From SAR116 cluster bacterium AG-447-C21 (GTDB taxonomy: Bacteria > Pseudomonadota > Alphaproteobacteria > Thalassobaculales > Thalassobaculaceae): a stretch of 64,000 bases of DNA. The stretch is taken from contig QCQB01000001.1 in NCBI GenBank assembly GCA_003212315.1, forward strand, positions 1 through 64,000, given 5' to 3'. This document shows, one piece after another, positions 17,601-18,049 of the stretch. Every line of letters begins with the position of its first letter. Positions within the stretch are counted from its first letter, which is position 1. The notes under the pieces are model-generated. The model was not told where the DNA came from. It worked only from the letters and a program-made list of their open reading frames with translations, and did no database searches. Made by a program: the position numbers and the translations under genes.

Positions 17601-17691
17601 CTGCTGCTTTTGGTTTGCGTTAATATATGAATTTAGTTTAACGGAATAGCATCGTGCTGTTTAGATAATTGGGCGAGCTATGAATTTTTTT

Positions 17692-17736
17692 AAACACCCC
17701 CGATATTGTAATATAATTACAATATCGGGGGTGTTT
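17692..17736 (+). terminator. Perfect 21-bp-stem, 3-nt-loop inverted repeat downstream of rpoC
   Basis: AAACACCCCCGATATTGTAAT-ATA-ATTACAATATCGGGGGTGTTT. Confidence 0.6.
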
Positions 17737-17798
17737 GCGCAAAACTTGTACTAAAAGTTAATTTAATAATAAAGATTACGATTCTTTTAACTCAGCAC

Positions 17799-17827
17799 TT
17801 GACCCGCGGGCCTATCATAAATAGTAT
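17799..17827 (+). promoter_or_regulatory. Candidate sigma70 promoter upstream of rpsG
   Basis: TTGACC - 17 nt - TAGTAT. Confidence 0.5.
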
Positions 17828-17945
17828 CCGGCCACTTTAGTAGAGATTGGTGGTATTCTTAAGTCCGTCTTTAGATGGAAGAGGAATAAACGCGGTTTCG
17901 TGGGATAATAAGTTGCAGTTTGATCCTAATGACTGGGTCTAAGTA

Positions 17946-18006
17946 GCGAAACTAGCAATACTAGTAATAGCGTACTAGTATTGCTGGTTTCGCATATTTT
18001 TTTTTC
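17946..18006 (+). terminator. Rho-independent terminator/attenuator hairpin immediately upstream of rpsG
   Basis: GCGAAACTAGCAATACTAGT-aatagcgt-ACTAGTATTGCTGGTTTCGC (20 bp) followed by ATA and a long T run. Confidence 0.85.
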
Positions 18007-18049
18007 TACCCCATACTATTAAGGGGTGGTGAAATAGAGGGAGTAGGGG

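Follow-up and report, generated by a model that had tools for sequence, protein, structure and literature searches.

The str locus of SAR116 cluster bacterium AG-447-C21

In the window (the whole stretch of 64 000 nt that was analysed, from contig QCQB01000001.1 of the assembly referred to below as G000), rpoC is followed by rpsG, fusA and an open reading frame in the place of tuf; the 449 bp that separate the end of rpoC (17600) from the start of rpsG (18050) contain no S12. The features at this junction are:

13422-17600, forward strand: rpoC, the upstream border of the missing rpsL (open reading frame; TIGR02386, NCBIfam)
17691-17737, forward strand: rpoC-terminator hairpin with a perfect 22-bp stem and a 3-nt loop (fold -33.6 kcal/mol), at the same place in relatives
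17799-17827, forward strand: str promoter-like site TTGACC-17-TAGTAT, now ahead of rpsG; conserved in genera g1 and g8 and in rpsL-bearing relatives
17946-18005, forward strand: attenuator-like str leader hairpin GCGAAAC...GTTTCGC, then nine T (fold -34.4 kcal/mol), the same hairpin being present in relatives
18029-18049, forward strand: GTGAAATAGAGGGAGTAGGGG, perhaps what is left of the rpsL stop codon and rpsG ribosome-binding site, with a short likeness to the stretch between rpsL and rpsG in relatives; rpsL was deleted at about this point
18050-18520, forward strand: rpsG, now the first gene of the str operon (TIGR01029, 224.7 bits, NCBIfam)
18537-20612, forward strand: fusA (TIGR00484, 1121 bits, NCBIfam)
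20659-21870, forward strand: 403-aa open reading frame, putatively tuf by its position

The usual order of the bacterial str operon is rpsL-rpsG-fusA-tuf, and few bacterial gene pairs are as conserved as rpsL-rpsG. The product of rpsL, S12, is an essential and universal protein of the decoding centre, usually taken to be vertically inherited. That rpsL is missing from between rpoC and rpsG, as the original prediction had it, is confirmed by the open reading frames, by a Pfam PF00164 profile search and by tblastn of the gap, which returns no credible S12 remnant at E 10. In the profile search, no frame of the entire G000 assembly (2.67 Mb, 120 contigs, 83% complete) yields an S12; as a control, the same search detected S12 in 13 of 14 genomes and recovered the relocated S12 of two genus-mates, described below, at E about 1e-36.

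Elsewhere in the window, a tandem pair of glycine riboswitch aptamers (Rfam RF00504; 49125-49326) lies ahead of an open reading frame at 49383.

A normal spacer without its gene

The gap folds much more strongly than shuffled versions of it (z -8.9), because of two perfect hairpins (17691-17737 and 17946-17993). These had been described as filling the gap; they did not replace rpsL, as the same terminator, promoter and leader are found in relatives that have the gene. In most close relatives with rpsL, rpoC is followed by a terminator-like hairpin, and the stretch up to rpsL also holds a promoter-like TTGACC-N17-TAGTAT, which lies 207-239 nt before rpsL; in two of them (G026 and G019) the GCGAAAC...GTTTCGC hairpin with its T-run is seen 27-28 nt before rpsL. 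The spacer of relatives that keep the gene is also of similar size (466, 461, 443, 457 and 430 bp; some are shorter), and the G000 gap is therefore the normal spacer minus rpsL: the terminator of rpoC, the str promoter and the leader hairpin are the ancestral ones, the length is normal, and rpsL alone has been cleanly deleted. A short sequence right before rpsG, GTGAAATAGAGGGAG, is suggestive of the place in relatives where rpsL stops and rpsG has its ribosome-binding site. An origin of the hairpins as a mobile element or as a replacement for rpsL is out, since they belong to the ancestral terminator and leader; the core of the hairpin occurs nowhere else in the window, and the Rfam matches here all fall below the curated thresholds.

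Attenuators ahead of rpsL are known in other bacteria (PMC2965389). The locus resembles these in having a terminator-like hairpin and T-run in the leader of the first str gene (17946-18005); here the hairpin, a predicted Rho-independent terminator, precedes rpsG and not rpsL. As an operon, the locus still has its promoter and leader, with rpsG and fusA following rpoBC in the usual order, but rpsL is deleted, rpsG comes first, and the rpsL-rpsG intercistronic region, through which S7 represses the str operon in E. coli (PMC10931766), is largely gone. With this region largely gone, S12 and S7 must be kept in balance by other means.

The same junction in relatives

The order to which the window belongs was sampled as 36 species, all of one family. 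The canonical arrangement, rpsL directly 5' of rpsG, is absent from the window and from five more genomes of two genera: the rpsL-less junction is present in 4/4 readable genomes of g1, the genus of G000 (G000-G003), and in 2/2 of g8 (G011 and G030). The gap measures 449-463 bp in the other three g1 genomes (G001, G002 and G003) and 469-473 bp in the two of g8. An intact S12 lies beside S7 in 21 other genomes of the order, and in all 20 genomes sampled elsewhere in the class in which both were found (adjacency being counted from listed gene positions). The suspected break of a highly conserved pair is thus borne out as an unusual one; the comparison with relatives that had been proposed as a check makes the loss of rpsL lineage-wide in g1 and g8, and not a local read artefact.

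An error of assembly or binning, with rpsL lost at the junction of an organism that has an ordinary str operon, would suit a draft that is incomplete and has no S12 at all. The junction is nevertheless interior to a 162-kb contig and recurs in the five further genomes, and is therefore not a collapsed assembly. The leader has diverged among the six matching genomes of two genera and is intact; in genus-mates, S12 is found at a different locus; and the same state is seen in a complete genome from another order. Loss of the gene in assembly at the junction is rejected on these grounds, and an error of this kind is extremely improbable.

A divergent S12 at another locus

In four genomes of g1 and g8 (G002, G003, G027 and G033), S12 is encoded at a single metabolic locus common to all of them: it lies downstream of the gene for an NAD-dependent epimerase (the G033 contig ends before the epimerase) and followed on its 3' side by a GFA gene and/or a hydroxyisobutyrate-dehydrogenase-type gene, plus old yellow enzyme. 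In two genomes of genus g7 (G010 and G019) the same locus is without S12, the epimerase being followed directly by old yellow enzyme. A conserved, sigma-70-like promoter-like site (TTGACTT...CATATTcCG) belongs to the relocated gene itself, on which purifying selection is strong (dN/dS 0.01, G002 versus G003).

Those neighbours of the relocated gene that were tested were not found in G000 at orthologue-level identity, and contigs stop beside the locus in related assemblies: an SDR gene is at position 13 of G001:C366, and HIBADH is cut by the end of G004:C66. Most simply, therefore, the S12 of G000 lies in an unassembled part of the genome, and the assembly is without S12 because the locus that holds the gene in genus-mates is missing from it; the form described here was seen in other genomes of the order, all of them incomplete MAGs, and not in G000 itself. 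The original prediction had S12 either elsewhere or lost from the assembly. Each part stands to a degree: the gene is elsewhere in genus-mates, and the G000 assembly also lacks it. A mere move is improbable, as the S12 in use is divergent.

A GFA gene on G011:C38 was considered as a further S12 locus and set aside, since no S12 accompanies it. A 14.3-kb contig, L198 (G004:C57), has matching inverted ends with the same genes; the assembly has probably folded back on itself there, next to the S12 locus.

Every relocated S12 (S12b below) carries K42R in TTTPRKPNS, and R85G, V86P and K87N in GGGPNDLPG; D88 is retained in all. (Residues are in E. coli mature numbering; K42 and K87 are K43 and K88 when Met is counted.) Among 176 other full-length S12 rows, all four changes are found only in that of Stappia indica SN13-18. 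Over its full length, S12b passes the TIGR00981 equivalog cut-off of 113 bits with 190-215 bits (G002, the second copy of G019, and Indioceanicola). It is the only S12 found in genomes that include one complete one (G063), and purifying selection acts on it; we infer that it functions in the ribosome.

The streptomycin-resistance positions K42 and K87 are both substituted in every S12b, in which streptomycin-contact positions are thus altered; R85G and V86P are beside the resistance positions. Among the alleles that give Agrobacterium high-level streptomycin resistance are K43R and K88R (Met included in the count; PMC10521367); in E. coli, resistance alleles in use have changes at K43, K88 and P91 (PMC12416847). 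S12b is like such alleles in K42R and in the change at K87, but it is a natural, fixed gene at another locus, with the whole loop altered (GPN), and not a point mutation. Judged by these residues, S12b may be streptomycin-resistant; no report of K87N in connection with rpsL was found in the open-access literature.

Other natural variants at the streptomycin positions may exist: in L007 (G048:C34) an S12 in its normal place has K42R and K87P, and sphingomonad-type S12s have K87R.

S12b in other lineages

Searches for the exact S12b motif, which miss variants, found it in 5 of 36 genomes of the window's order, gave one real case among 385 genomes of the class (G063) and no new case among 399 of the phylum, and found it in 3 of 63 genomes of the order to which G063 belongs, all of one genus. 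A match in G050 was due to chance. G063 is a complete, single-contig genome of another order, and an independent instance of the same state. Its sole S12 is S12b, at 1.98 Mb; S7, at 2.73 Mb and thus 750 kb away, stands behind rpoC with no rpsL between. In Indioceanicola profundi, S12b is on a 1.18-Mb plasmid; in Stappia indica SN13-18 the variant S12 comes directly after gyrB (L084:6001-6369). S12b has one set of neighbours in the window's order and others in G019, in Stappia and in a group in which rimO adjoins it (Indioceanicola, G418 and G419; L180:6529-8369, L181:8949-10942 and L182:1508-3433); at the S12b loci of Stappia and of the window's order, rimO is not adjacent. The product of rimO is the S12 methylthiotransferase, which modifies D88 of S12. 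An integrase-core transposase is near S12b in G063, and a fragment of HTH_21 (IS3-type) is near that of G019.

G019 has two S12 genes. The second, with the S12b motif, is on C356, a 10-kb contig that is possibly mis-binned. The copy in the str locus has lost the GGRVKDLP loop, and its dN/dS is 0.19, against 0.02 for the neighbouring S7. A plausible interpretation is that G019 is an intermediate, in which a working S12b would stand beside a decaying native rpsL.

Other observations concern neighbouring material. G423 has two str loci: L184 (G423:C26), which lacks rpsL and closely resembles the str locus of the S12b genus g40, and L190 (G423:C106), with an ordinary rpsL; one of them is possibly a contaminating contig. 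Carriage of the motif by viruses was discarded, as the single viral motif match is not S12 and the viral S12s that were found carry other loops. Four contigs of a viral collection (L175, L176, L177 and L178) encode divergent S12, with 53-64% identity to the query and, in some, altered 85-88 loops.

Origin of the relocated gene

In a tree of 76 S12 proteins with all columns, S12b including that of Stappia forms a group with support of 99/97. With the five trait columns removed, a single S12b clade is not recovered, and is not rejected either (p-AU 0.297); S12b may therefore have arisen by convergence or from independent origins. That the relocated genes descend from the order's native S12 is rejected, though weakly, with p-AU of 0.034 for g1/g8, 0.024 for the G019 copy and 0.041 jointly, in a tree that is poorly resolved, S12 being short. 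S12b agrees with its hosts in base composition, which thus gives no hint that it was transferred recently.

These results bear on a simpler history, in which a duplicate of native rpsL, or the transposed gene itself, reached the metabolic locus inside the lineage and then diverged quickly, with K42R and GPN arising elsewhere by convergence. The failure of the g1/g8 S12s to join other S12b once the trait columns are removed would agree with it, as would their host-like GC and the weak resolution of so short a protein. It is at odds with the test of descent from native S12, and with four identical motif substitutions in every relocated copy that recur in just one of the 176 other rows, that of Stappia; such a history is unlikely. 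A foreign origin of S12b has moderate support, and transfer or an old paralogue is favoured as its source, if not proven.

Probable displacement of native rpsL

The best reading of these observations is that a foreign or long-diverged S12 displaced native rpsL. Displacement as such is well supported: the native copy is deleted in g1, g8 and G063, and is decaying in G019, with the divergent copy kept in each. The likely order would be as follows. S12b arrived first, most likely by transfer and possibly as an old duplicate, and in g1 and g8 would have been inserted downstream of the epimerase gene in the metabolic cluster, with its own sigma-70-like promoter. Both copies would then have coexisted, the native one redundant and decaying, as it appears to be in G019; finally, in the lineage of g1 and g8, a deletion would have removed native rpsL from its place after the str leader and ahead of rpsG. 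Promoter, leader hairpin and rpsG-fusA were retained, so that rpsG became the first gene. To the account as a whole (native rpsL deleted in g1/g8 with its leader kept, S12b supplying S12, this order of events, and an unassembled S12 locus in G000), a probability of roughly 0.7 is given.

Xenologous displacement is known for some other ribosomal protein genes. The present case is like it in that a divergent copy appears at a new locus while the native one decays and goes; it is unlike it in that the gene is that of S12, of the decoding centre, and that the rpsL-rpsG pair is broken. In the open-access literature, no report was found of a second or relocated rpsL, nor of xenologous ribosomal-gene displacement.

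A possible driver is selection of the streptomycin type favouring loss of the native gene. It would fit because resistance of the S12 type is recessive while a sensitive copy is expressed (PMC2373285, PMC4710455). Extended, this perspective supposes that a travelling S12 of streptomycin-resistant type (K42R and the GPN loop) displaced rpsL several times in Alphaproteobacteria; resistance being recessive, each acquisition would have selected for loss of the native gene, and so broken the rpsL-rpsG pair. This proposal is tentative, and less likely than not.

Displacement may instead have been neutral, or driven by another adaptation, for example altered decoding or co-evolution with RimO. The adjacency of rimO to S12b in Indioceanicola, G418 and G419, the D88 kept in all S12b and the strong purifying selection on the gene all sit well with this; the joint change of the classical streptomycin positions 42 and 87 in every S12b does not, nor does the placement of rimO away from S12b in the window's order and in Stappia. 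A displacement of this kind is a real possibility, to which somewhat less than an even chance is given.

Implications

Displacement of native rpsL by S12b suggests that a core gene in one of the most conserved clusters of bacteria can apparently be swapped, and the intermediate stage in a relative (G019) would show how core genes can be exchanged. The split pair raises the question of how S12 and S7 stay balanced. Two named carriers, Stappia indica SN13-18 and Indioceanicola profundi, make the idea of resistance directly testable.
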